The notes beneath the pieces are model-generated. The model did not search any database. It was not told the DNA's origin and saw only the letters and a list, made by a program, of their open reading frames with translations. From a virus, in the IMG/VR virus record IMGVR_UViG_3300005841_000011, positions 1-44,339 of that record: a DNA stretch of 44,339 nucleotides; one strand, given 5' to 3'. A program made the position numbers and the translations under genes. The stretch's first letter is position 1. Each line of letters begins with the position of its first letter. Positions 1 through 44,291 of this stretch are shown here, piece by piece.

Positions 1-100
1 CGTTTCTCTTGTCGTGGTTGGCCACACGTCCTCCGACGGCGCGAAGAGTCATTCGTAATCGCTGCTCTCGCTCTGGTCGTGCTGCTTGACCTTCACGCGA
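1..100. repeat. Terminal direct repeat (circular join), left copy
   Basis: These 100 bases are identical to 44240-44339. The helicase start codon at 44289-44291 corresponds to 50-52 here, where it overlaps the stop of the 49-456 gene in the ATGA manner seen throughout the genome. The repeat is therefore best read as the assembly overlap of a circular or circularly permuted molecule. A true 100-bp physical terminal repeat cannot be excluded from sequence alone. Confidence 0.9.
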
Positions 101-456
101 TCGACGGCCTCGAGGTTGATCTCGATGCCGAGCCCGCGGTTCACGTACGTGGTCCGCTTCTTCGCCTTCATCTTCTGGATGAGGACGTCCTTGCGCTCCT
201 TCACGTAGTTGGTCGCGCTCTTCGCCTTCTCCTCGGCGAGCGTGACCTTGCCGGCGAGATCGTCGAGCTCGGGGTCGAGCTTCTCGACCATGCCTTTGCC
301 GGGCAAGTACTGCTGCACGGGCGCCGTCGCGGCCGTGCGGTCCTTCAGCACTTCACCCGTCTTCTTGTCGACGACCTTGTCCGCGGCGTCGAGCACGCGC
401 GACGAACCGCGTATCTTCAGCTTCGCGCGGTCGATCTTCTGCTCGGGCTTCTTCAT
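49..456 (-). CDS. Conserved-type small phage protein upstream of helicase
   Basis: A 135-residue, strongly charged protein with Lys/Glu-rich helical stretches (about residues 55-115) and an acidic C-terminus (SESSDYE). I do not recognise the family. The composition and the Lys-rich YVKERKDVLIQKMKAKKRT segment suggest a helical protein that binds nucleic acid or another protein. The ATG at 454-456 follows an AAGGA Shine-Dalgarno seven bases upstream; a longer upstream extension in this frame has no such support. The ATG overlaps the stop of the DUF2158-like gene. Across the circular join its stop (49-51) overlaps the helicase ATG, so it is probably co-translated with the replicative helicase and may assist replication (inference). 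Confidence 0.75.
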   Translation of the reverse strand: MKKPEQKIDRAKLKIRGSSRVLDAADKVVDKKTGEVLKDRTAATAPVQQYLPGKGMVEKLDPELDDLAGKVTLAEEKAKSATNYVKERKDVLIQKMKAKKRTTYVNRGLGIEINLEAVDRVKVKQHDQSESSDYE

Positions 457-641
457 GATTCGTCCTTCATGAGAACGAGCGCAGCCGGTGAAACCTTGGT
501 GCGTTGCAACGTCCATTTTTGCGAACCGAACTTATCAACCTGACGATCGAACCAGATCACGACGACCTGCCCGCCTTCATGCTGTTCGACGGTCAGGACC
601 GGCGACAGGCCATGAAGACGAACGGCGCTCCCCGGCGTCAC
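453..641 (-). CDS. DUF2158/YodC-like small protein
   Basis: A 62-residue protein starting GTG (639-641), which overlaps the stop of the upstream Acb2-like gene (GTGA). The order of features resembles DUF2158 (YodC) proteins: an N-terminal PGSAVRLHG, then SPVLTVEQHEGGQVVVIWFD. That family shows a G-x-x-V-x-L strand, a MTV-like strand and a V-x-x-W-F motif. The KSGG signature is replaced by HGLS here, so assignment is tentative. Function of the family is unknown. Its stop overlaps the ATG of the 135-residue gene. A longer frame to 974 exists but is the shadow of neighbouring genes. Confidence 0.6.
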   Translation of the reverse strand: MTPGSAVRLHGLSPVLTVEQHEGGQVVVIWFDRQVDKFGSQKWTLQRTKVSPAALVLMKDES

Positions 642-841
642 GGCGTCACGTCCCGCGCGAGCTTCGCGCGAACGGCCGCGTCCTTCGCCTCGAGCAGCTT
701 GCGAAGAGCGACGGTGCGCTCGGGATTGCGCGGCAACGTCGCGATGATGAGCGATGCGAGATCCGCGAACGGCCTCGACACATCCTGAAGATGCGGCGGC
801 AGATGCGAGTACGTGAAGAACTGCTCGATGTGCTCTGTCAT
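638..841 (-). CDS. Acb2/Tad1-like cyclic-nucleotide sponge (putative)
   Basis: A 67-residue protein. It opens with a short segment containing FFTYSHLPPHLQ, then a helix (VSRPFADLASLI), a turn with LPRNPERT, and a second helix, ALRKLLEAKDAAVRAKL. This pattern (FTY near the N-terminus, a P-x-x-x-E-R-x-x-A-L-x-x-L-x-x-A-x-x-A second helix) is what I know from the Acb2/Tad1 hairpin family. Members of that family form oligomers that sequester cyclic di- and trinucleotides (anti-CBASS) or, in Tad1, gcADPR (anti-Thoeris). Which ligand this one binds cannot be read from sequence. The ATG at 839-841 overlaps the stop of the RusA-like gene and follows GGAAAGGG. It lies in the early/replication operon, so it would be made early in infection, as expected for an anti-defence factor. 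Confidence 0.65.
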   Translation of the reverse strand: MTEHIEQFFTYSHLPPHLQDVSRPFADLASLIIATLPRNPERTVALRKLLEAKDAAVRAKLARDVTP

Positions 842-1605
842 GGGGTCCCTTTCCAGGTGAGCTCGATCCGGACGCCGCGGACGCCGCGGCGGTGCGGCGA
901 CTCGCGTTCGTACGTGATCGGAATCGTTCCGGCGCGCGACGGACTGTCTGCGAGCTCGGCGTCGTTGAAACCAAGCGCCTCGGCGATGCCGTCGACGACG
1001 TACTTCAGCGCGCCGCGCACGTTGTCGTGTCGGTCGATCTTGCCGGTGGAGATGCGCGTGAGCTTGATCGAAGACGGCCGGCCGAACGACGCGACGCCGG
1101 CATCCGCGATCGCCATCATCGCGCGGCCGCTGCACGTCTCCTTGTAGTCCGCATCGATCGCCATGTTTCGCCACCGCGTGTTGCGTTGCGGCGCCTGGAA
1201 GTCGTTCGGCGACTTCGTGCGGAGCTGCGAGAGGTAGATGGTGAGCTTCGTCGGCGCGCAATAGCTCGCGTCGTACGCGCACCGGCCGTTGCAGATGTGC
1301 GGCTCGAGCAGCGCCCACCCAAACGTGCGCACGAGTTTCTGCTTCTCGGTCTCGCGCTCGAGGATGATCGCGCCGTTCGGCGGACACAGGTGCGCGGGGA
1401 TCTCGACCGGGCGCCTCTTCATCGGACGGCCGCGTTTGCACTGCCCGCATCGCGAGCACGCGCCGCCGTGCTTCTTCCCGGCATGGCCGCGGAGCTCGCA
1501 GCCGCACCTGCACATCTCCTCGCGCGGGTTCGCCTTGCGCTTCTTCGGCTTGAGCGGGAGGCCTCCGAAGACCTCGTCGAGGTCGAGCTGCTGCGCCGCG
1601 CTCAC
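838..1605 (-). CDS. RusA-like Holliday-junction endonuclease with Cys-rich N-terminus
   Basis: 255 residues from a GTG (1603-1605) overlapping the preceding stop. The C-terminal third contains KIDRHDNVRGALKYVVDGI, followed by ALGFNDAEL (about residues 189-218). This matches the RusA layout D-x-x-D-N-x6-K-x-x-x-D plus a later D, the carboxylates that bind catalytic metal in RusA-type resolvases, which cut four-way junctions and branched replication intermediates. Residues 30-60 hold a run of Cys and His (CRCGC...H...CSRCGQC), probably a zinc-binding extension not present in the classic about 120-residue RusA. Three more Cys lie near 105-116. It lies in the operon with the helicase, consistent with debranching DNA before packaging. 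RusA assignment rests on the motif only. Confidence 0.6.
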   Translation of the reverse strand: MSAAQQLDLDEVFGGLPLKPKKRKANPREEMCRCGCELRGHAGKKHGGACSRCGQCKRGRPMKRRPVEIPAHLCPPNGAIILERETEKQKLVRTFGWALLEPHICNGRCAYDASYCAPTKLTIYLSQLRTKSPNDFQAPQRNTRWRNMAIDADYKETCSGRAMMAIADAGVASFGRPSSIKLTRISTGKIDRHDNVRGALKYVVDGIAEALGFNDAELADSPSRAGTIPITYERESPHRRGVRGVRIELTWKGTP

Positions 1606-1706
1606 GAACGCCTCTTGATGATCAGCGCGACCACGATCGCGGTGATCGAAAACATGAACACGGCGAACTCGGCCGCGTCGACCCACGTGTCGGGCGTGTG
1701 CGTCAT
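1602..1706 (-). CDS. 34-residue single-span membrane peptide
   Basis: Starts ATG at 1704-1706, overlapping the upstream stop (ATGA), and ends overlapping the RusA-like GTG. About residues 14-30 (FAVFMFSITAIVVALII) form one hydrophobic span, followed by a KRR positive tail that would stay in the cytoplasm. Too short for family assignment. Support comes from the two coupled overlaps and its amino-acid composition. Confidence 0.55.
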   Translation of the reverse strand: MTHTPDTWVDAAEFAVFMFSITAIVVALIIKRRS

Positions 1707-9488: not shown

Positions 9489-10171
9489 TCGTTCATTCCG
9501 TCACGCAGGGCAGCGCGGACTGGCTCAAGCTCCGCGCGGGAATTCCGACGGCGTCGGCGTTCGACAACATCGTCACGCCGACGGGCGCGAAGTCGAAGTC
9601 GCGCGAGCGCTATCTGCACGCGCTCCTCGCGGAGCGCATGCTTGGGCGACCGCTCACCGAGCACGTCTCGGAGTGGATGGCGCGCGGCTCGACAGCGGAG
9701 GCCGAGGCCGTCGCGTACTACGAGCTCCAAGTCGACGCGGCGACGACGCCCGTCGGCTTCATCACGAACGACGCGAAGACGATCGGCGCGTCGCCGGACC
9801 GTCTTGTTGGCGACGATGGCCTCGTCGAGATCAAAGTCCCGAAGGACCATGTGCACGTCGGCTACCTCCGCCTGAAGAAGGCTGACAAGACGTACTTTCC
9901 TCAGCTTCAAGGGCAGCTCTGGATCACCGGCCGCAAGTGGGTGGACATCATGAGCTACCACCCCGAGCTCCCGACGGCGCTCGTGCGCGTCGAGCGCGAC
10001 GAGAAGTTCATCAAGACGCTCGAGGAGGAAGTCACCGCCTTCTCAGAGGAGCTCGAGAAGCTTGCCGAAAGCTTCGCCGCGCGCGGCTGGATCAAGAAGC
10101 CGCTCTTTTGGCCGGAGCCGACGGACAAGTTCGAAGTGATCGACCTCGGCGATGCCGAGCCCAACTTTTGA
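9485..10171 (+). CDS. YqaJ/lambda-exonuclease family 5'-3' exonuclease
   Basis: 228 residues from GTG 9485. The fold elements are in order: SADWLKLRAGIPTAS near the N-terminus, GASPDRLVGDDGLVEIKVPK (Asp 105, Glu 115, Lys 117, the D...E-x-K metal site), then YFPQLQGQLWITG with the motif III glutamine. These mark the lambda-exo/YqaJ nucleases, which resect double-stranded ends to give substrate for the annealing protein encoded just upstream. Length is normal for the family. The C-terminal helix is charged (EEEVTAFSEELEKLAE). Ten bases separate it from the ParB-like gene. Confidence 0.92.
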   Translation: MIVHSVTQGSADWLKLRAGIPTASAFDNIVTPTGAKSKSRERYLHALLAERMLGRPLTEHVSEWMARGSTAEAEAVAYYELQVDAATTPVGFITNDAKTIGASPDRLVGDDGLVEIKVPKDHVHVGYLRLKKADKTYFPQLQGQLWITGRKWVDIMSYHPELPTALVRVERDEKFIKTLEEEVTAFSEELEKLAESFAARGWIKKPLFWPEPTDKFEVIDLGDAEPNF

Positions 10172-10181
10172 AAGGAACACC

Positions 10182-11834
10182 ATGCAGACCGAACAAGTGA
10201 AGACGAACGGAACGAACGGCCACGCGAAGACAGCGCCGGCGAACCTCGCGATGCTCGCGCTCGAGGACCTCGACGCGCACCCCAACAACCCGCGCAAGAC
10301 GTTCACCGCGATCGACGAGCTCGCGGACAGCATCAAGGCGCACGGCCTGCTCGAGCCGATCATCGTGCGACCGAAGGGCAAGCGCTACGAGATCGTCTGC
10401 GGCGAGCGCCGCTTCCGCGCTTCGAAGAAGGCGAAGGCTTCGACGATCCTCGCGCTCGTGCGCGACCTCGACGACAAGACGTGCGAAGTCCTCATGGTCG
10501 AGGAGAACACGAAGCGGAGCGACCTCCACCCGCTCGAGGAGGCCGAGGGCTACGAGCGGCTCCGCAAGGTGCACGGCATGACCGTCGAGGAGATCGCCGC
10601 GACGGTCTCGAAGACGCCGGCGACGGTCTACGCGCGTATGAAGCTCTGCGCGCTCTGCAAGCCGGCGCGCGACGCGTGCTACGCCGGCACGATCTCGGCG
10701 GCCGTCGCGCTCCACATCGCTCGCATCCCAAGCGAGAAGCTGCAGCTCGAGGCGCTCAAGGAGCTCGAGAAGCGCGCGAAGGAGATCGACGGTTTCGATC
10801 AGCAAGACGAGGACGACTTCTTCGACGGCGGCGTGGAGAGCGCAGTGAAGCTCACCACGCCCGTGAGCGAGCGTCAGGCCTTCGCGCTCATCCGGTCGAA
10901 GTTCATGCTGCGACTCGTCGACGCGCCGTTCGATCTCGCGGACGCATCGTTCAAGGCCGGCGCGTGCACGGTCTGTCCGAATCGCACAGGCAATCAAACC
11001 GAGCTGTTCGCGGACGTGAAGAGCGCCGACGTCTGCACGCTGCCCTCGTGCTTCGTCGAGAAGCGTGATGCGGCGTGGAAGGTGCGCGTGGCGCGCGCGA
11101 AGACGGACGGTGTCGACGTCCTGTCCGACGCCGAAACGAAGAAGCAATTCAACACGCACGACGGCTCGTTGTCGTGGAACTCCGCGTACGTCGACCTCGA
11201 CCGCGAAGGTTACATCGACGGCAAGAACACGACGTATCGCAAGAAGCTCGGGACGAAGCTTCCACCGATCACCATCGCGCGCGATCCCGAAGGCGGTATC
11301 CACGAACTCGTCAAGAAGTCGGACGTCGAGAAGAAGTCGACCGCGGCGAAGGCCTCGCCCGCCGAGCGTGAGCGCGAGAAGAAAGAGCGCGAGGCGAAGA
11401 AGAAGGAGAAGACGAAGGACGCGATCGAGCGCCGCTGCATCGAGCTAGCGATCGCGGCGATCGCCGAGAAGGCCGAAGGCAAGCCCGCGACCGTCGAGCT
11501 GTGGCGCGCGCTCCTCGTCGAGAAGCTCTCGGCGATGAGTCAGCTCAAGGCGGAGGTCCTCGTCGAGCGGAAGCTCGTGAAGGACACGCAGGACGCCTAC
11601 GACCTCGAGGTAAAGGGCGTCGTGCGCATCGCGTCGAAGCTGAGCGAGAAGACGGCGCGCGCAATCCTCATCAACATCGTCGCCGAGGAGTCGGCGTTCG
11701 ATCACTACGGCACGCGGTCGGAGCTCGCGGAGGAGCGCGGCGCGTTCGACATGCTCTGCGACTTCTACAAGGTCGATCCGAAGAAGTTCCAGGCCGAGGC
11801 GAAGGCCTCCGTCGGCGCGGGAGCGAAGTCATGA
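10182..11834 (+). CDS. ParB/Spo0J-like nuclease-domain protein
   Basis: 550 residues from ATG 10182, preceded by GAAAGGAA. Residues 28-125 are a ParB N-terminal domain: HPNNPRK, LADSIKAHGLLEPI, GERRFRA (74-80), then MVEENTKRSDLHPLEEAEGY. Residues about 133-155 give a helix-turn-helix (TVEEIAATVSKTPATVYARM). A cysteine-rich part follows (CTVCPNRTGNQ ... VCTLPSCF), probably zinc binding. A long Lys/Glu coiled region (about 400-430) and a helical C-terminal domain complete it. ParB proteins bind parS-like sites and hydrolyse CTP. In phages they can serve partition, replication control or DNA modification. No parA partner is visible nearby, so a role in partition alone is doubtful. Confidence 0.85.
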   Translation: MQTEQVKTNGTNGHAKTAPANLAMLALEDLDAHPNNPRKTFTAIDELADSIKAHGLLEPIIVRPKGKRYEIVCGERRFRASKKAKASTILALVRDLDDKTCEVLMVEENTKRSDLHPLEEAEGYERLRKVHGMTVEEIAATVSKTPATVYARMKLCALCKPARDACYAGTISAAVALHIARIPSEKLQLEALKELEKRAKEIDGFDQQDEDDFFDGGVESAVKLTTPVSERQAFALIRSKFMLRLVDAPFDLADASFKAGACTVCPNRTGNQTELFADVKSADVCTLPSCFVEKRDAAWKVRVARAKTDGVDVLSDAETKKQFNTHDGSLSWNSAYVDLDREGYIDGKNTTYRKKLGTKLPPITIARDPEGGIHELVKKSDVEKKSTAAKASPAEREREKKEREAKKKEKTKDAIERRCIELAIAAIAEKAEGKPATVELWRALLVEKLSAMSQLKAEVLVERKLVKDTQDAYDLEVKGVVRIASKLSEKTARAILINIVAEESAFDHYGTRSELAEERGAFDMLCDFYKVDPKKFQAEAKASVGAGAKS

Positions 11835-14189: not shown

Positions 14190-14488
14190 GTGAACGGAAA
14201 GAGCGCGAACGCACGGACCCGACGGACCACGAGATTGCGTCGGCGTTCGTCTACGGAAACGGGAATGCTCACCGGGACGACGTCGCCGTGTCTGCGCTCG
14301 AAGGTGTGATCGCCAACATCAGACGCGACGAGCGCTACAAGATTGGACTGGAACTCGGGCGCGTCGCGAACCAGATCTACAACGAGCAGGAAAAGGACTT
14401 CCCGAGCAACGTCCTCGACCGCGTCGCGGCGTCGCTACGTTGCAGTGAGCCCCTTATCGCCGCCGTGATCGCAAAGAATCCGCGATGA
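14186..14488 (+). CDS. 100-residue protein immediately upstream of integrase
   Basis: ATG 14186 overlaps the previous stop, and its TGA overlaps the integrase ATG (14485). Two helical segments; the last part (LDRVAASLRCSEPLIAAVIAKN) could be a helix-turn-helix-like unit. Its place beside int makes an excisionase or directionality factor possible, but I see no MerR-type excisionase motif, so this is a guess. Confidence 0.55.
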   Translation: MSERKERERTDPTDHEIASAFVYGNGNAHRDDVAVSALEGVIANIRRDERYKIGLELGRVANQIYNEQEKDFPSNVLDRVAASLRCSEPLIAAVIAKNPR

Positions 14489-16146
14489 CGCGACGTCGCC
14501 AAGGCACTGGCACGATCGAGGAGCGCAAACAGCGCGACGGATCGATCCGCTTCATGCCGCGCCTCCCCGACAAGAGGCGCACGCCGCTCGGCACCTTCGA
14601 GTCGCGCGAGTGGGCCGCGAAGATCCTCGACGCAGCGGTCTACGAGCTCGCCGTCGGCCGCCTCAAGACGTCGAACACGCTCGACGCGTACGCCGAGACC
14701 GTCTTCGACCAACGCGAGCTCGAGGGCAACAAGTCCGTCGGCACGGAGCGCGAGCGGTGGCGCTACGTCACCGGGCACGAGAAGCTCGGGCGAAAGCGCT
14801 GGGCGTGCGCGGACTGGCCGCTCGAGGCGATCAAGAAGAAGGACGTCGTCGAATGGCGCGACGCCCTCGCGACCCTCGGCCTCTCGCGCTCGACACGGAA
14901 GAACGCGCTCTCGACGCTCCGCCTCGTCTTCGCGGCCGCCGTCGACGCCGGCAAGCTCGAATACAACCCCGCGGCCGACGTGCACGTGAAGGGCAAGAGC
15001 GCGGCGAAGATGCGCCCGCTCACGCTCGACCAGCTCGCAGCGCTCTTCTGGAACGCCGACGACGAAGGGAAGCACCTCGTCGCGATCGCCGTCGGGACGT
15101 GCATCCGCCAGGGCGAGCACCGCGCGATCCTCACGAGCGAAGTGCACCTCGATGCGCGCGCGCCGTACATCGAGATCAACCGGAGCGGCCCGAGCTCGGA
15201 GACGACGAAGAGCGAGCGCTCGCGCAACGTCCCGCTCTTCGGCTTTGCGCTCGAGGCGATGCGCTCGTGGAAGCCGACGCCGAACGAGCGCGGGCTCCAC
15301 TTCGCGACGTCGAAGCCTCGCTTGAGCGGCTGGCACAATCAGACGCGCGTGTCGAAGTTCGTCGGCTCGCCTCGTCCCAAGGGCGCGATGGTTCCGCGCA
15401 AACGCTGGCTCGCATGGCTCGCCGCGGCCGGCATCGATCGCAAGGTGCGATGGCATGATCTCCGTCACACGGGCGCGACGCTCCTTCTTACCGGCGCGCT
15501 CGGTCGTGCGTGGTCGCTCGAGGAGCTGAAGGACTTGCTCGGTCATTCGAGCTTGAGCGTCACGGAAAGGTACGCCCGCGACCTGAACGTGCTCGCGATG
15601 CGTGCGGCGAAGGATCACGGAGGCAATGATGAGAGTTCGCGTGAAGAACGACGAGAAGAAGGGCGGCCGAAACCTGCGCGTGAGAATCACGTACGGCCTT
15701 CACACGATCAAGGACTGCGGACTCCTCAAGCCAGGCGAGGAACGCTCGATCCAGATCTCTTCGTTCAGAGACTTGCTGGTGGAAGCGGAGTAGGTGACGA
15801 ACGAAGCCACACCGAAGCCACACGCCACGCAGCCGAAAACGTAACTGCGCGAAACTTTGAGCCGCCTTCGAGATTTGAACTCGAGACCTACGGTTTACGA
15901 ATTTCGGACGTTTCTGAGTCGGTGCGCGCACTTATCTCTAGCGCGTGGCTCCGCGGTGGAACGAACGAGATGCTCGTCGACGTGCGCGCGTTCGCGCTAG
16001 CGCTCCTCGAGCGCGCGGCGACGCGGAAGGACGTCTCGAGGCGCGTCGTGCAGCTCGCCGGCGCCCTTCTCGAGGCCGTTGACGAAGCACGCGTCGTCGA
16101 CGTCGTTGTAGACGGCTGGAAGCGGCCTGCGAAGCGAGGCGCGTGA
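14485..16146 (+). CDS. int: Tyrosine integrase, frame open through attP
   Basis: The first about 380 codons are a complete tyrosine recombinase. There is a core-binding helical domain (about 60-170), then a catalytic domain with Arg 208 (CIRQGEHR), HDLRHTG (His 324, Arg 327), GHSSLSVTERY (His 354, nucleophile Tyr 363). A normal enzyme would end near residue 380-390. Here no stop occurs in this frame until 16146. The remaining stretch reads across a separate small gene (15629-15793) and the tRNA-like attP core. It finally coincides with the start-bearing ORF at 15970-16146. The extra C-terminus has no protein-like pattern before 15970. Either the enzyme has a long tail, or a stop was lost, or it acquires its natural end only after integration. 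The catalytic call is firm; the end is not. Confidence 0.85.
   Translation: MTRRRQGTGTIEERKQRDGSIRFMPRLPDKRRTPLGTFESREWAAKILDAAVYELAVGRLKTSNTLDAYAETVFDQRELEGNKSVGTERERWRYVTGHEKLGRKRWACADWPLEAIKKKDVVEWRDALATLGLSRSTRKNALSTLRLVFAAAVDAGKLEYNPAADVHVKGKSAAKMRPLTLDQLAALFWNADDEGKHLVAIAVGTCIRQGEHRAILTSEVHLDARAPYIEINRSGPSSETTKSERSRNVPLFGFALEAMRSWKPTPNERGLHFATSKPRLSGWHNQTRVSKFVGSPRPKGAMVPRKRWLAWLAAAGIDRKVRWHDLRHTGATLLLTGALGRAWSLEELKDLLGHSSLSVTERYARDLNVLAMRAAKDHGGNDESSREERREEGRPKPARENHVRPSHDQGLRTPQARRGTLDPDLFVQRLAGGSGVGDERSHTEATRHAAENVTARNFEPPSRFELETYGLRISDVSESVRALISSAWLRGGTNEMLVDVRAFALALLERAATRKDVSRRVVQLAGALLEAVDEARVVDVVVDGWKRPAKRGA
15629..15793 (+). CDS. 54-residue basic ORF overlapping the integrase tail
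   Basis: ATG 15629 has GGAGG five bases upstream, one of the best ribosome sites in the window. The product (RVRVKNDEKKGGRNLRVR then YGLHTIKDCGLLKPGEERS) looks like a beta-rich basic protein. It starts just where the integrase catalytic domain ends, in another frame. It lies between int and attP, where small directionality or arm-binding proteins are sometimes found. Confidence 0.6.
   Translation: MRVRVKNDEKKGGRNLRVRITYGLHTIKDCGLLKPGEERSIQISSFRDLLVEAE
15802..15823 (+). repeat. Perfect 11-bp tandem repeat beside attP
   Basis: CGAAGCCACAC occurs twice in direct tandem at 15802-15812 and 15813-15823, about 37 bp from the tRNA-like core. Paired direct repeats of 10-11 bp near the core are the usual look of integrase arm-type sites (known from lambda-type systems); this reading is inference. 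Confidence 0.5.
15860..15901 (-). other. attP: attP core: 3' part of a tRNA-Thr(CGU) gene
   Basis: On the minus strand the order is anticodon loop TTCGTAA (15901-15895), stem half ACCGT, variable loop AGGTC, T-arm TCGAG-TTCAAAT-CTCGA (15884-15868), acceptor half AGGCGGC (15867-15861) and a T discriminator at 15860. The T-loop is canonical. The 5' stem half expected before the loop (ACGGT) is absent, so the tRNA identity starts at the anticodon loop, as in phages that integrate at a tRNA and restore its 3' end. The anticodon CGT reads ACG. It lies on the complementary strand, downstream of int. Confidence 0.8.
15970..16146 (+). CDS. 58-residue helical ORF right of attP
   Basis: ATG 15970 lies in the same frame as the integrase read-through. 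The product (VRAFALALLERAATRKDVSRR...VDEARVVDVVVDGWKRP) has normal amphipathic helices and phage-like codon choice, unlike the stretch just before it. In a prophage it would be separated from int, near the opposite end. Stop overlaps the next GTG. Confidence 0.55.
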   Translation: MLVDVRAFALALLERAATRKDVSRRVVQLAGALLEAVDEARVVDVVVDGWKRPAKRGA

Positions 16147-38570: not shown

Positions 38571-40037
38571 ATGGCCAACGTCCTCACTCGCTTCCTCTCG
38601 AGCCTGAGCACGAAGACGCTCGAGCGCCTCGGTGCGACGACGAAACGAGCGCAGCGCATCCGCACGCGCGCGCAATTCGATCTCTCGCAGCTCGCGAAGA
38701 GGCCCGAAGCGCCGTATCGCCCGATCGGGAACATCGCTTGGGACATCGATGCGATCAGGAACGCGCGCGACGCGCAGCTTCGCGGCGATTTTCGCATCGC
38801 CGCTCGTCTCGCGGACGCGATCGGCACCGATCCCGGTCTCTTCGCCTCGCGATTGAATCGTCTCGCACCGATGCGCGGTCTTCCCGTCGTTCTCGAGCCC
38901 GCAAACCAGACCGCGCGCGCCCTACGCACCGCGGAGGAAGGCGAATCGCTCTTTGGACGCAAGGGCGTCGCCTTGCAGCGCGATCACATGGTCTCACTCC
39001 ACCGTCGCTACGTCGATCACGGCGTTTCGTTCGGTTACAACGTCCCGACGGTGCGTGACGACGGCTCGCGCGTCGATTTCGAGCTCCGATGTTGGCCGCA
39101 AGAGTTCGTGCGGTGGCGCGAGGCCGATAAACGCTACTACGCGCTCACGTTGAACGGCGGGGAGGTCCCGATCGAGCACGGTGACGGTCGGTGGGTGGTC
39201 TTTCAGCAAGAAAACCTCTCGCCGTGGACCGAGGGCGCGATCGTCGCGGGATCGATGCTCTGGGCGGACCGCGCTTTCGCCGTGCGCGACCGATCGAACG
39301 CGTCGCGCGCGCACGGCTCGCCGAAATTGATCGGCGAGATGCCCGCGGGCGTCGCGCTGCAGAAGGACAACGGCGACGGAGTACTCGTGCCGACGCCCGA
39401 AGCGGAGCAGATGCTCGAGCTCCTTCAGATGCTCTTCGTCGGCGAGCTGCCCTTCGGTCTTCGCCCTGCAGGCTCGAAGACGGAGCTGATGGTCTCGCAA
39501 TCGCAGGCCTGGCAGATCTGGACCGAGATCATCAAGGCGAATAACGCCGACTCCGACCGCATCTACCTCGGCCAGGACGGCACGACGCAGAACTCCGGAG
39601 GCAACTACATCAAGAGTGAGCGCCTCTTCGGCGTGCGAAACGATCTCGTCGAGTCGGACATCATGGTTTTCGCCGAAGCGATCCTCACGGGCACGATCGA
39701 GCCGTGGGCCGCGATCAACTTCGGCGATTCGAGGCTCGCGCCCGCGCGTTGCTGGCAGATGCCGGACGCGGACGAGGATGCGCGCCGCACGTCGATCGGC
39801 GAGCATCAAGAGCTCTTCTTCCGTCACGTCGACTCGATGCTCCTGCAGGGCTACCTCGTGACGCAAGAGACCGTGAACGCTCTGGCGAAGACCTACGGCG
39901 TCGACCCGCCGCAGATCGACAACGTGAAGGGGCTCAAGCCGCGCGACGCGCAGGCGGCCGCGGCGCCGATGCCCACGGCGGCGAAGGTCGTCCCGATGTC
40001 GTGGCGCACCGTGCGCCCGCTCTCGCGCGCAGCCTAG
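38571..40037 (+). CDS. Portal protein (DUF935/Mu gp29-like)
   Basis: 488 residues from ATG 38571; the longer frame to GTG 38463 runs into the repeat region and looks non-coding. Portal-like parts are a helical N-terminus, a middle with RDHMVSLHRRYVDHGVSFGYNVPTVRDDG and RWREADKRYYALTL, then WVVFQQENLSPW, LPFGLRPAG, GTIEPWAAINFG and a helical C-terminus that binds the capsid wall. The dodecameric portal is the DNA gate and connects terminase with neck. It is the only structural gene on the plus strand, and its stop overlaps that of the terminase on the other strand. Confidence 0.65.
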   Translation: MANVLTRFLSSLSTKTLERLGATTKRAQRIRTRAQFDLSQLAKRPEAPYRPIGNIAWDIDAIRNARDAQLRGDFRIAARLADAIGTDPGLFASRLNRLAPMRGLPVVLEPANQTARALRTAEEGESLFGRKGVALQRDHMVSLHRRYVDHGVSFGYNVPTVRDDGSRVDFELRCWPQEFVRWREADKRYYALTLNGGEVPIEHGDGRWVVFQQENLSPWTEGAIVAGSMLWADRAFAVRDRSNASRAHGSPKLIGEMPAGVALQKDNGDGVLVPTPEAEQMLELLQMLFVGELPFGLRPAGSKTELMVSQSQAWQIWTEIIKANNADSDRIYLGQDGTTQNSGGNYIKSERLFGVRNDLVESDIMVFAEAILTGTIEPWAAINFGDSRLAPARCWQMPDADEDARRTSIGEHQELFFRHVDSMLLQGYLVTQETVNALAKTYGVDPPQIDNVKGLKPRDAQAAAAPMPTAAKVVPMSWRTVRPLSRAA

Positions 40038-41599
40038 ATCGTTCGCTTCGGGACGAACGCCGGGCGTGCGACGTAGCCCGCCGGCGCCGCGAGCGGCCGA
40101 GGGGGGATCCGCGCGGCTGCTTTGTTCGCCGCGGCGGTGATCGCGCCGAGGCCCTTCGTCGTCTCGCGGTAGTCGACGTCTTGATCCTCGAGCTTCGCAA
40201 GGAAGTGGATCGCCCAGACGAGCGCGTCGAGTCGGTTCGGCGACGGATCGCCCGATGCTGGCTCCCACTCCGTCATCTCGCGCTCGAGCTCGGCGAGCTC
40301 CTCGCGCGGTACGTGGTGCACGCGCTTCTGTTCGTAGAGCGCGGCGACGGGCTCGGCGCGGATCGCCTTGCCCTTGCTCGCGGTCACGAGCTTGACGATC
40401 ATCGCGTCGGCCGCGCGATCGCCACGCTTCTTCGCCATCGCGCTACGGAGGACCTCGTCGACCAAATTGCCGCCGCGGTTCTTCTCCGCGACGATCGCGT
40501 CCGCTTGGTACTTGTCGTAGAGGTCGATGACGATACGGCCCCACGCGGCCGCGGAGTGTCGCGCCGTGCGATCCTCGAGCACGTACAAATCTTCGTCGGG
40601 CCCTTCGCCGACGACGACGATTCCCGTGAGGTCGCTCCTCTCCGATTGCGTGATCGCCGGATCGACGCCGACCACGACGCGCAGCTCGCGCGGAGGTGCG
40701 TCGCGGCGATTGTCATCGATCCACGCCTCGTGAAAGAGCGCGTTCTCGTCGTCGTCGAGCACGTGCTCGTCGGGCGTGAGCTCCTCGCGCTCCGAGCGCG
40801 TACCGGCGTACTTGCGCTTGCGGTTCTCGAGCCACTTCTTGTCGTTGTACTTGTTCTCCTCGCTTGCTCCGAGGATCGTGACCGTGTCGGGGTCGGCGAT
40901 GAGCTCGCGGAGGAAGCTTCCCGCGGCCGTCTTCTTCACCGTCGTCGTCACGATGATCTCGTTCGGAAAGGTCGCCGAGCGCGTCGCGTCTTCGATGTTC
41001 GAAAACAGCGTCTTCAGCTTCTTCCACTTGATCGGCTCGTCGGCCCACGCGGTGTCCAGGTTCGCGCCGCGGAACTCGGGCGTCTCGGCGCTCTCGACGT
41101 ACGCGAACGCGCCCGTGTGGAACGTGACGCGCGGATTCGGCCGACTGACGTACACCGGGCGGTGTCGCGGGTGAAACGCCTGCAAGAGCCCGTTCTCTTC
41201 GTCGTCGACTCCGATCATGTAGCGCTCGATGTCGCCGATCGTCGGGCCGATGAGCGCGAGGCGGCGCGCGCCGGCGTAGACGCGACGTCGAATGCGTTGG
41301 ATCGCCGTCTCCGACTTCCCCGAGCCGCGGCCGCCGATGAAGAGAAGGCATCGAAAGCCCGCGATGAGGTGAACGACGTCGGCTCGGAGCGTCGGGTCCT
41401 GTTTCGGACGCGCCCACGCGCGCCAGTCGTACGCGAGCCGCGCGAGATCGGACCGAGAGAGTTCTCGAAGGATGTCGTCGCGCTGCTCGCGCGGTAGGCG
41501 TGCCCATCGCTCGATCAAGCCGGGCCCGACGAGCGTTTCGGACAGCGCCGCCGCGTGCGCCATCGCGATCCGGTAGTCCTCGCGAGCGTCCGTGCTCAA
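40034..41599 (-). CDS. terL: Terminase large subunit
   Basis: 521 residues from TTG 41597-41599, overlapping the small-subunit stop (TTGA). ATPase: Walker A FIGGRGSGKSE (about 87-97) and a Walker B-like LDTAWADEP (181-189). Nuclease: VVVGVDPAI (Asp 313), DAIVAEKNRGG (Glu 372) and NRLDALVWAI (Asp 458), the three acidic residues of an RNase H-like cleavage site. It translocates DNA into the prohead and cuts the concatemer. The C-terminal tail is Ala/Pro-rich and may contact the portal. Confidence 0.9.
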   Translation of the reverse strand: MSTDAREDYRIAMAHAAALSETLVGPGLIERWARLPREQRDDILRELSRSDLARLAYDWRAWARPKQDPTLRADVVHLIAGFRCLLFIGGRGSGKSETAIQRIRRRVYAGARRLALIGPTIGDIERYMIGVDDEENGLLQAFHPRHRPVYVSRPNPRVTFHTGAFAYVESAETPEFRGANLDTAWADEPIKWKKLKTLFSNIEDATRSATFPNEIIVTTTVKKTAAGSFLRELIADPDTVTILGASEENKYNDKKWLENRKRKYAGTRSEREELTPDEHVLDDDENALFHEAWIDDNRRDAPPRELRVVVGVDPAITQSERSDLTGIVVVGEGPDEDLYVLEDRTARHSAAAWGRIVIDLYDKYQADAIVAEKNRGGNLVDEVLRSAMAKKRGDRAADAMIVKLVTASKGKAIRAEPVAALYEQKRVHHVPREELAELEREMTEWEPASGDPSPNRLDALVWAIHFLAKLEDQDVDYRETTKGLGAITAAANKAAARIPPRPLAAPAGYVARPAFVPKRTI

Positions 41600-42168
41600 A
41601 ACGGCGCCTTGCCGCAATGCTGACAGCGCGTCTCGGCCTCCGCGCGCGTCACCAGGTTACGAAACTTCGTGAGCGTGCGATCCGCGGCCTCGAGGTTTGT
41701 TGGGTCGAGCTCGGGATTCTGCTCGGCCGGCGGCTCGAGCCCCGCGAGCTCGCGGGCGTAGTCGCGCTGCAGCTTCGAGAGCCTCTCGTACACCGCGCCG
41801 GACGAATCTCCGCGCACCATGGCCTCGCGCGTCTGCGCGAGCTGCACCGTGATCGCTGCGAGCTCCTTGCGCAGAAGCTCCCTGGACGCGCCGCGCTCGC
41901 CGAGCGACGCTTCTGCCCGGGTGACCTCCGCGGCGAGCTCTGCGGGCGTGAGGGAGGGCGGCGCGGGGTTGTTTCGGGTGACCTTCTCGGCCTTGCGCGG
42001 CGCGCCGGGCTTGCCCTTCGCCTCCAGGCCGCGCGTCTTCATCCACGCGAGCACCGTCGAGTGGCTCACGTCGAGCGACGACGCAATCGCGCGGATGCTC
42101 TCGCCCGCCTCGAGCAGCGCGACGAGTCGCTTCAATCGTGCCGGCGTGATCTTCGTGTCAGCGGCCAT
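41596..42168 (-). CDS. terS: Terminase small subunit
   Basis: 190 residues, ATG 42166-42168. An N-terminal HTH (TPARLKRLVALLEAGESIRAIASSLDVSHSTVLAWMKTRG) binds the packaging site. A Lys-rich linker precedes a coiled-coil oligomerisation region (LTPAELAAEVTRAEASLGE...ELAAITVQLAQTREAM), and a short C-terminal CQHCG motif could bind zinc. It sits directly before the large subunit, as usual. The repeat-rich gap just upstream is the likely place for its recognition site. Confidence 0.85.
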   Translation of the reverse strand: MAADTKITPARLKRLVALLEAGESIRAIASSLDVSHSTVLAWMKTRGLEAKGKPGAPRKAEKVTRNNPAPPSLTPAELAAEVTRAEASLGERGASRELLRKELAAITVQLAQTREAMVRGDSSGAVYERLSKLQRDYARELAGLEPPAEQNPELDPTNLEAADRTLTKFRNLVTRAEAETRCQHCGKAPF

Positions 42169-42623: not shown

Positions 42624-44291
42624 TCACACCGCCCTCCAGAGGGTCGAGTTCTTCGGACCCTTCTCGGCGGCGACGGCCGGCGGGTTGCGCTTGGCGAGCG
42701 CGTTGAGCGCGGCGTAGACGGTGTCTTTGGACACCTTGGCGAGGCGCGCCTTGATCTCGTTGCCACTGAGACCCGGCTCCTTCTTCACGACCTCGAGGAC
42801 GCGCTCGCACTTCTGCTCGAACGCCGCGGCCTCGTCAGGCGCGTTCTTCTTCTTGTCGGCCTTGCGGAGCTCCGCCAGCTGCTCGGGATCGAGGTGTTCG
42901 ACCTTGACGCCGGCCTTCGCGATGAAGGTGCGTTCGCCCGTGAGCATGTCCTCGTGATCGTCGTCGATGTCGACGAAGCGCACGCCGAACGTGTCGAGCG
43001 TGTCGGCCGAGAGCGCGGGCGACTTCACGTGATGCAGGAGCACAGGCTTGCGTTTGCCGGTGGGCTCGAGCACGTACGCAGAGCCGAGCGCGCCGAAGAT
43101 GGCCGATGATCCGCGGATCATGTTCATGAGGTCCTGGATCTTGCCGGCCTCGTCCTTCGAGTTGGGGCGCTGTCCGTTGCCCTTCTTCGCGTGGTGAATG
43201 ATGAGGACCGTGCAGCCGGTCTCCTCGGAGAGCTTGTTCAAGCGGTAGATGAGCTTGCCCATCGCGGGCGAGTTCTCTTCGGTGTCTTCGACCGAGCCGG
43301 TGAGCGCGTCGATGATGACGAGCACGTTCTTGCGCATGACGGCGCGGATCTCGGCGATGTGCTCGTCGCGATCGAGGTACGCCTCCGGATATTGGTAGCA
43401 GCGGATCTTGGGCTCGCCTTTTTCGTCGGCGAACTCCTTCCGAGAGATCTTCTTCGCCCAGAGCATGCGCGCGTAGCGGATGCGTGTGTCGAGCCACGGC
43501 TGGTCGTAGTTCAAGTGCGCGACGTTGCCGACGATGCGCGGGCGCCACAAACCGAAGACATCGCGACCGGTAGCCGTGCAGACGGCGATCTCTTGCGCGA
43601 TGAGCGTCTTTCCGGAGAACGGGAAGCCGGCGAACATGTTGGCGCGGCCGCGGATGATGCGGAGCTGCTCGATGAGCCACGGGAGCTCGGCGGGGATCGG
43701 CTCGAAGAACTCCTCGAGCGACTTGTAACGGAGCGAGCTCGTGACGTCGCGCGACACCTCGAGGATCGACTCCTCAGCGGCCGCGAGGAACGCGCGCGGA
43801 TCGTCCGTTACGTAGCCCTGATCGGCGATCGTTTGCGCCCGCGCGATCGCATTTCGCACGCGCGCCTTCTCGCGCACGATGCTGGCGTACTTGTCGACGT
43901 TCGCGACGGCGGGCGCGGCGTTCAAGAGCGCCTGCAGGTATTCCATCCCGCCAACTTGAGCGATGCGCGAGATGCCCTTGTCGTCCTTTGCGTCCTTGAG
44001 CCAATTGCCGACCATGACGACGTCGGTGCTCGTGCCGCGCACGTGAAGATCGAGGATCGCTTCCCACACGCGGTTGTGAGCTTCGGAGTAGAAGTGCCGA
44101 GGGCGCAGCCACATCAGATCGGCGACGCGCGTGCTGTCGAGCATCACCGCCGAAAGCACGGCGGCCTCCGCATCGAGATCGTGCGGCGCGACGATGCCCT
44201 CGATGTACTTCGGCTCGAGGCGCGCGCGCTCGTCGCGTCCGTTTCTCTTGTCGTGGTTGGCCACACGTCCTCCGACGGCGCGAAGAGTCAT
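42624..44291 (-). CDS. DnaB-type replicative helicase with RepA-like core and C-terminal winged helix
   Basis: 555 residues, ATG 44289-44291 overlapping (across the join) the stop of the gene at 49-456. Residues 34-160 are a DnaB N-terminal domain (HDLDAEAAVLSAVMLDSTRVADL...FYSEAHNRVWEAILDLH). Then a RecA-type ATPase with GFPFSGKT (Walker A, 222-229), VLVIIDAL (Walker B, about 323-330) and TVLIIHHAKK. The core looks closer to RepA/AAA_25 helicases than to DnaB itself. About 500-550 is a winged helix (CERVLEVVKKEPGLSGNEIKARLAKVSKDTVYAALNALAKR). It would load at the origin and unwind DNA; the extra domain may give sequence contact with it. Confidence 0.85.
   Translation of the reverse strand: MTLRAVGGRVANHDKRNGRDERARLEPKYIEGIVAPHDLDAEAAVLSAVMLDSTRVADLMWLRPRHFYSEAHNRVWEAILDLHVRGTSTDVVMVGNWLKDAKDDKGISRIAQVGGMEYLQALLNAAPAVANVDKYASIVREKARVRNAIARAQTIADQGYVTDDPRAFLAAAEESILEVSRDVTSSLRYKSLEEFFEPIPAELPWLIEQLRIIRGRANMFAGFPFSGKTLIAQEIAVCTATGRDVFGLWRPRIVGNVAHLNYDQPWLDTRIRYARMLWAKKISRKEFADEKGEPKIRCYQYPEAYLDRDEHIAEIRAVMRKNVLVIIDALTGSVEDTEENSPAMGKLIYRLNKLSEETGCTVLIIHHAKKGNGQRPNSKDEAGKIQDLMNMIRGSSAIFGALGSAYVLEPTGKRKPVLLHHVKSPALSADTLDTFGVRFVDIDDDHEDMLTGERTFIAKAGVKVEHLDPEQLAELRKADKKKNAPDEAAAFEQKCERVLEVVKKEPGLSGNEIKARLAKVSKDTVYAALNALAKRNPPAVAAEKGPKNSTLWRAV

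Follow-up and report, generated by a model that had tools for sequence, protein, structure and literature searches.

A putative sister clade of the Acb2/Tad1 hairpin in phages: small helical proteins as candidate sponges of nucleotide immune signals

The characterised relatives within the Acb2/Tad1 hairpin superfamily are nucleotide sponges (PMC12043709). Acb2 proper is represented by Vs.4, the Acb2 of phage T4 (PMC10286901), by p26 of Pseudomonas phage PaP2 and by the structures 7uq2, 8h2j and 8h2x. Tad1 (PDB 7uav and 8kbb-8kbh) carries the hairpin at its C-terminus, and the hairpin itself is described by the Pfam family PF24729 (Acb2_Tad1_hairpin; curated cut-off 27 bits). Phage-borne PF24729-type hairpins of 60-70 amino acids include the members of phrog_1454, the chain 9ptq and gp101 of Mycobacterium phage StellaBean, which is annotated as 'cyclic nucleotide sequestering protein'. 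The window analyzed here, the complete 44,339 nucleotides of IMG/VR record IMGVR_UViG_3300005841_000011, encodes a 67-residue protein that a first-pass annotation had called a putative Acb2/Tad1-type cyclic-nucleotide sponge. In the following, relatives of this protein are referred to as family A and bona fide PF24729 members as family B. Homology of family A to the Acb2/Tad1 hairpin superfamily is well supported by sequence comparison, and the family is best filed as a separate sister clade of this hairpin, neither an Acb2 nor a Tad1. Like Acb2, the window protein is encoded by a tailed phage, as the window also harbors genes for DnaB and a large terminase, and relatives are carried by 317 phage records. 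However, it is 20-30 residues shorter than Acb2 proper and lacks the PaP2-type signatures IKGYRDLSQEE and GKTD-x-Q-x-G-x-M. With Tad1 it has only the hairpin superfamily in common, a connection that runs through family B; the N-terminal antiparallel beta-sheet of Tad1 is absent from the all-helical window model, in which the hairpin uses up the 67 residues.

The open reading frame (ORF) is located at positions 638..841 on the minus strand, with its ATG at 841-839 and its TGA at 640-638, and its 67 codons translate to MTEHIEQFFTYSHLPPHLQDVSRPFADLASLIIATLPRNPERTVALRKLLEAKDAAVRAKLARDVTP. The strings FTYSHLPPHLQ, LPRNPERT and ALRKLLEAKDAAVRA, on which the first-pass annotation had relied, are all present in this minus-strand translation. 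The ORF is a genuine gene, beyond chance. The G+C content at third codon positions amounts to 82%, a Shine-Dalgarno-like AAAGGGA can be read 5' of the start codon (846..852, minus strand), and substitutions relative to 71 relatives are distributed over codon positions 1/2/3 as 764/547/1830, which is a coding-type pattern. Four-nucleotide overlaps couple the ORF to both neighbors, ATGA at the start and GTGA at the stop, so it is part of a tightly packed gene run. The preceding gene spans 838..1686 in its longest reading (minus strand). Downstream lies a small gene for 62 amino acids (453..641, minus strand; GTG at 641-639) that begins with VTPGSAVRLHGL, followed by a third gene of the run (49..456, minus strand; ATG at 456-454; MKKPEQKIDR...) whose start overlaps the previous stop. 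Searches of Pfam and PHROGs gave no matches for three neighboring ORFs (841-1686, 456-974 and 52-516). A RusA-like resolvase for the upstream gene and a YodC/DUF2158-like protein for the downstream gene were considered and dropped, since neither Pfam nor PHROGs lent them support. The assignment of the locus to a replication operon is likewise unproven, because the neighbors match no family and DnaB, the sole clear replication gene, is situated at the opposite end of the record. The DnaB-type helicase (42624-44291, minus strand), a large terminase (40034-41617, minus strand), a tyrosine integrase (14485-16146, plus strand) and a ParB-domain protein (10152-11834, plus strand) mark the window, by its gene content, as a temperate tailed phage that also has a gene of the partition type. 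Its first 5000 positions also harbor, on the minus strand, a run of small Cys-x-x-Cys-rich genes such as those at 1703-1900 and 1900-2109, most of them family-less.

Searches with the single sequence were largely empty. The window protein alone had no match in Pfam or PADLOC, only chance Dps matches in NCBIfam and only chance matches in the PDB, and a six-frame search of the window with PF24729 returned none. A profile of close relatives matched chance helical proteins in the PDB; with the broad A4 profile the top PDB chains were designed coiled coils, owing to repeat composition, and 9ptq appeared only with an E-value of 0.35. In profile matches against PHROGs, the window protein was assigned to phrog_1761 (E = 5.2e-30, residues 1-63) and phrog_5120 (E = 6e-20, residues 2-64) and more weakly to phrog_1454 (E = 5.5e-4). 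The latter family acts as a bridge, as it is also matched by T4 Vs.4 (7.1e-4) and by StellaBean gp101 (8.2e-30). Among the relatives, PF24729 was matched best by L337 (20.1 bits, E = 7.3e-4), and further matches below the cut-off had E-values of 0.076 and 0.011; no tested family A member reached 27 bits. Every scanned family B member, PaP2 Acb2 and Vs.4 scored well above this cut-off. When PF24729 was searched across three whole contigs, the signal was found solely at the family A gene, and the A2 profile searched across two whole contigs gave a signal solely at the family B gene.

The relationship became apparent when alignments of both families were compared. The sequences of family B (130 in the alignment) were gathered with a consensus probe, and only the real sequences retrieved entered the analysis; the alignment of family A comprised 196 sequences. 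Comparison of the two with hhalign gave a probability of 95.6% and a score of 41.8, whereas 100 column shuffles did not exceed 16.5 and a reversed profile scored 9.5. Two further alignments made from these sequence collections, A4 and A5, gave 94.4% and an E-value of 8.8e-8. Diverse members are required for this result, as shallow profiles of 38 rows yielded only 42-46%. In addition, a family B HMM recognized 100 of the 196 family A sequences at E<0.01 (calculated for 10,000 sequences), and a family A HMM recognized 53 of the 130 family B sequences, with no decoys under E = 1 in either direction. By the same HMM test, family A is linked to family B more strongly than family B is to Acb2 proper, although the latter pair shares PF24729. 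The family B profile in turn matched 9ptq, 'Acb2 homolog 43', with an E-value of 5.3e-11 and Tad1 with 1.3e-4 in the PDB. Direct similarity to Acb2 proper was not observed, as comparison of family A with a PaP2 Acb2-like set gave hhalign probabilities of 0.5-1.2% and HMM E-values of at least 35, and the link to Vs.4 exists only via phrog_1454. None of 50 family A contigs carried a canonical hairpin above the cut-off and none of 50 B/C contigs a separate family A gene; these counts would be compatible with redundancy but, for want of base rates, carry no weight here.

The structure of the window protein was predicted by AlphaFold2 with a pLDDT of 93.8 and consists of one short and two long antiparallel helices (residues 4-9, 16-35 and 40-61). 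The two-helix hairpin pattern noticed in the first-pass annotation is thus borne out by the model, with a short N-terminal helix in addition. A family B member has a near-identical predicted layout (helices 2-6, 15-36 and 41-63), and the published topology of Acb2 (PMC10419184) agrees with the predicted topology of the window protein. In a Foldseek search against viral models, the window model first retrieved its own family, after which most entries were 'Acb2/Tad1 hairpin domain-containing' proteins, with TM scores of 0.5-0.7 and weak E-values of 0.07-1. The family B model retrieved Acb2/Tad1 proteins and then family A proteins of Ochrobactrum phage OH and Dinoroseobacter phage DFL12phi1. Against PDB chains ranked by Z, Vs.4 was second and Acb2 ninth for the family B model, at Z values that are not distinctive for helical hairpins, and the window model matched generic helical hairpins (Foldseek, VIA-align), Acb2 being absent from the listing, an absence that speaks neither for nor against a relationship. 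Profile-profile comparison, two-way HMM recognition without decoys, a shared PHROG, topology and Foldseek neighbors therefore agree on the proposed kinship with the Acb2/Tad1 hairpin. The HMM search suggested for checking it was mixed in outcome, as the window protein itself had no match and its relatives stayed below the cut-off, whereas the profile homology lies above chance. Accordingly, the designation 'Acb2/Tad1-type' holds for ancestry and fold but not for membership by the Pfam cut-off or for direct similarity to Acb2. On function and on the operon, the first-pass annotation goes further than the data. Some family A members depart from the basic layout. An insertion in the turn joining the two long helices occurs in L041, L042, L061, L064 and L072, a place where Acb2 proper also has extra residues, and a longer N-terminal stretch precedes the hairpin in L247, L500 and L502 and at positions 1-77 of the phrog_1761 profile.

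The residues conserved in family A were compared with those of the canonical hairpin. Residues E41, R47, K48, L49, L50, E51, A52, K53, D54, V57 and R58 are 98-100% conserved in the 196 family A sequences, and F9, H13, L14, S22 and A29 are 96-99% conserved. The near-invariant block of the second helix, RKLLEAKDAAVR (residues 47-58), is encoded at 668..703 on the minus strand. In family B the conserved columns are F10, H13, R27, P42, R45, E46, T52, E55, W60, N62 and R67. Both families have in common, besides the short helix and the two long ones, an N-terminal F-x-Y/H...P, the aligned F, H and P, the glutamate at E46/E41, the leucine at L54/L49 and the helix-2 pattern A-x-x-K-L-x-E-A with its E-A pair; counterparts of E41, E51, A52, F9 and H13 are found in the canonical set. 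In contrast, the canonical invariants (R-E, T, E-E-A and W-A-N) are mostly replaced in family A, where E46, the second E and the A are retained. In the aligned part R27 corresponds to S22, R45 to P/A40, T52 to R47 and E55 to L50, and when the ungapped register is extended, W60 corresponds to A/C55 and N62 to V57. The invariants peculiar to family A are R47-KLLEAKD and V57-R58. Along the helix, R47, E51, D54 and R58 take positions i, i+4, i+7 and i+11, a spacing that would place them on one face. The loss of the canonical R, T, W and N means that the function may differ. A concerted swap of invariants within a conserved fold leads one to expect a change of ligand, so that the signal is probably not that of Acb2. 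The statement in the first-pass annotation that the ligand cannot be inferred is shared here.

Relatives of the window protein were detected in 317 of 50,697 GenBank phage records (tblastn, E<0.01), and at least 561 were confirmed in IMG/VR. Because phage databases are rich in them and only 82 relatives were found among 84,980 bacterial and archaeal species genomes, the gene is chiefly one of phages and prophages. Hosts in the records that carry it include Proteobacteria, Actinobacteria, Myxococcales, cyanobacteria and Planctomycetes. Over the hairpin, phrog_1761 and phrog_5120 take in both the window protein and its relatives; each of the two families is listed as 'unknown function'. Several GenBank labels are unsupported by the present analysis: 'anti-TRAP domain-containing protein' for the member of Ochrobactrum phage OH (L500), 'occludin homology domain protein' for members of Acinetobacter phages (H77 and H78) and 'endopeptidase Rz', annotated at the match position in Citrobacter phage phiNP (H9). 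Canonical Acb2/Tad1-hairpin-like proteins of Paenibacillus phages (such as H185, H186 and H189) are labelled '(putative) phosphomannomutase'.

The likeliest role of the window protein, and in our analysis a probable one, is that of a sponge for some nucleotide signal. The protein is a stand-alone alpha-helical hairpin that has a common ancestor with the Acb2/Tad1 hairpin domain, and its copies would assemble, probably as a hexamer, and thereby form pockets. These pockets may capture and retain a nucleotide immune signal produced by the infected cell, which would keep the defence effector from being switched on. The ligand is most probably other than that of Acb2, judging from the exchanged invariants, and the signal would be one that widely different bacteria share. 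An ordinary Acb2-type sponge for cA3, cAAG or cGAMP, with the same pocket and a merely divergent sequence, would have the same fold and ancestor, the F, H, P, E and A positions in common with canonical hairpins and an aromatic residue at position 11, as most family A members do. This reading is unlikely, as R27, R45, T52, W60 and N62 have given way to S22, P/A40, R47, A/C55 and V57, each conserved in its own way. The residues R47-K48-E51-K53-D54-R58 could alternatively form a charged helix that binds a host protein instead of a nucleotide, in a take-over function or as another inhibitor, and strict conservation of this helix across phages of many phyla would also be expected from a conserved protein target. 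The characterised superfamily relatives, including the solved ones, are nucleotide sponges, however, and a protein target is considered improbable. Least probable by far is that the protein is unrelated to Acb2/Tad1 and resembles it as any two-helix hairpin would. The generic helical hairpins among the PDB matches of the model and the empty single-sequence searches of Pfam and the PDB are consistent with mere resemblance, but reversed profiles of the same composition and helical period score 9.5 versus 41.8, no decoys fall under E = 1 in both HMM directions, and the viral Foldseek neighbors are specifically Acb2/Tad1 proteins.

The gene neighborhoods bear on a further alternative, namely that the hairpin was recruited for an accessory role in the head or in packaging, as a small protein that resembles Acb2 through ancestry only. 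The family A gene is located among portal, capsid and connector genes in Gordonia phage DumpsterDude and Acinetobacter phage Gln and adjoins the portal gene in Vibrio phage martha, and 13 of 80 close IMG/VR loci have an apparent large-terminase gene nearby, named from its sequence and not by family search. These settings fit a head protein. However, no neighbor family is present at more than 13 of the 80 loci, and positions beside thymidylate synthase, beside holin, near a putative endolysin endopeptidase or, in jumbo phages, amid genes without assigned function do not suit an assembly part. The varied neighborhoods thus fit a stand-alone accessory gene and argue against a fixed assembly role, which is regarded as quite improbable. 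The few bacterial copies and the lack of a fixed neighbor fit a mobile counter-defence gene, in line with the preferred reading as a nucleotide-signal sponge.

The clade formed by phrog_1761 and phrog_5120 is connected to Acb2/Tad1 by the present analysis. Tentatively, and with less than even confidence, it is proposed that they constitute a large undescribed clade of the superfamily, in which the swapped invariants would form a pocket for an immune nucleotide bound by no known sponge of the same fold, and that phages of Proteobacteria, Actinobacteria, cyanobacteria, Myxococcota and Planctomycetes may all counter one, perhaps undescribed, signalling defence. Among the small phage proteins filed as 'hypothetical', family A is one of the commoner, and public records either leave it unnamed or give it a wrong name. 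Through the link to the Acb2/Tad1 fold, its members become candidate immune-signal sponges that can be tested as a set. Its separate invariants point to a different ligand, and one small protein thus allows a direct test of the signals that phages need to neutralise.
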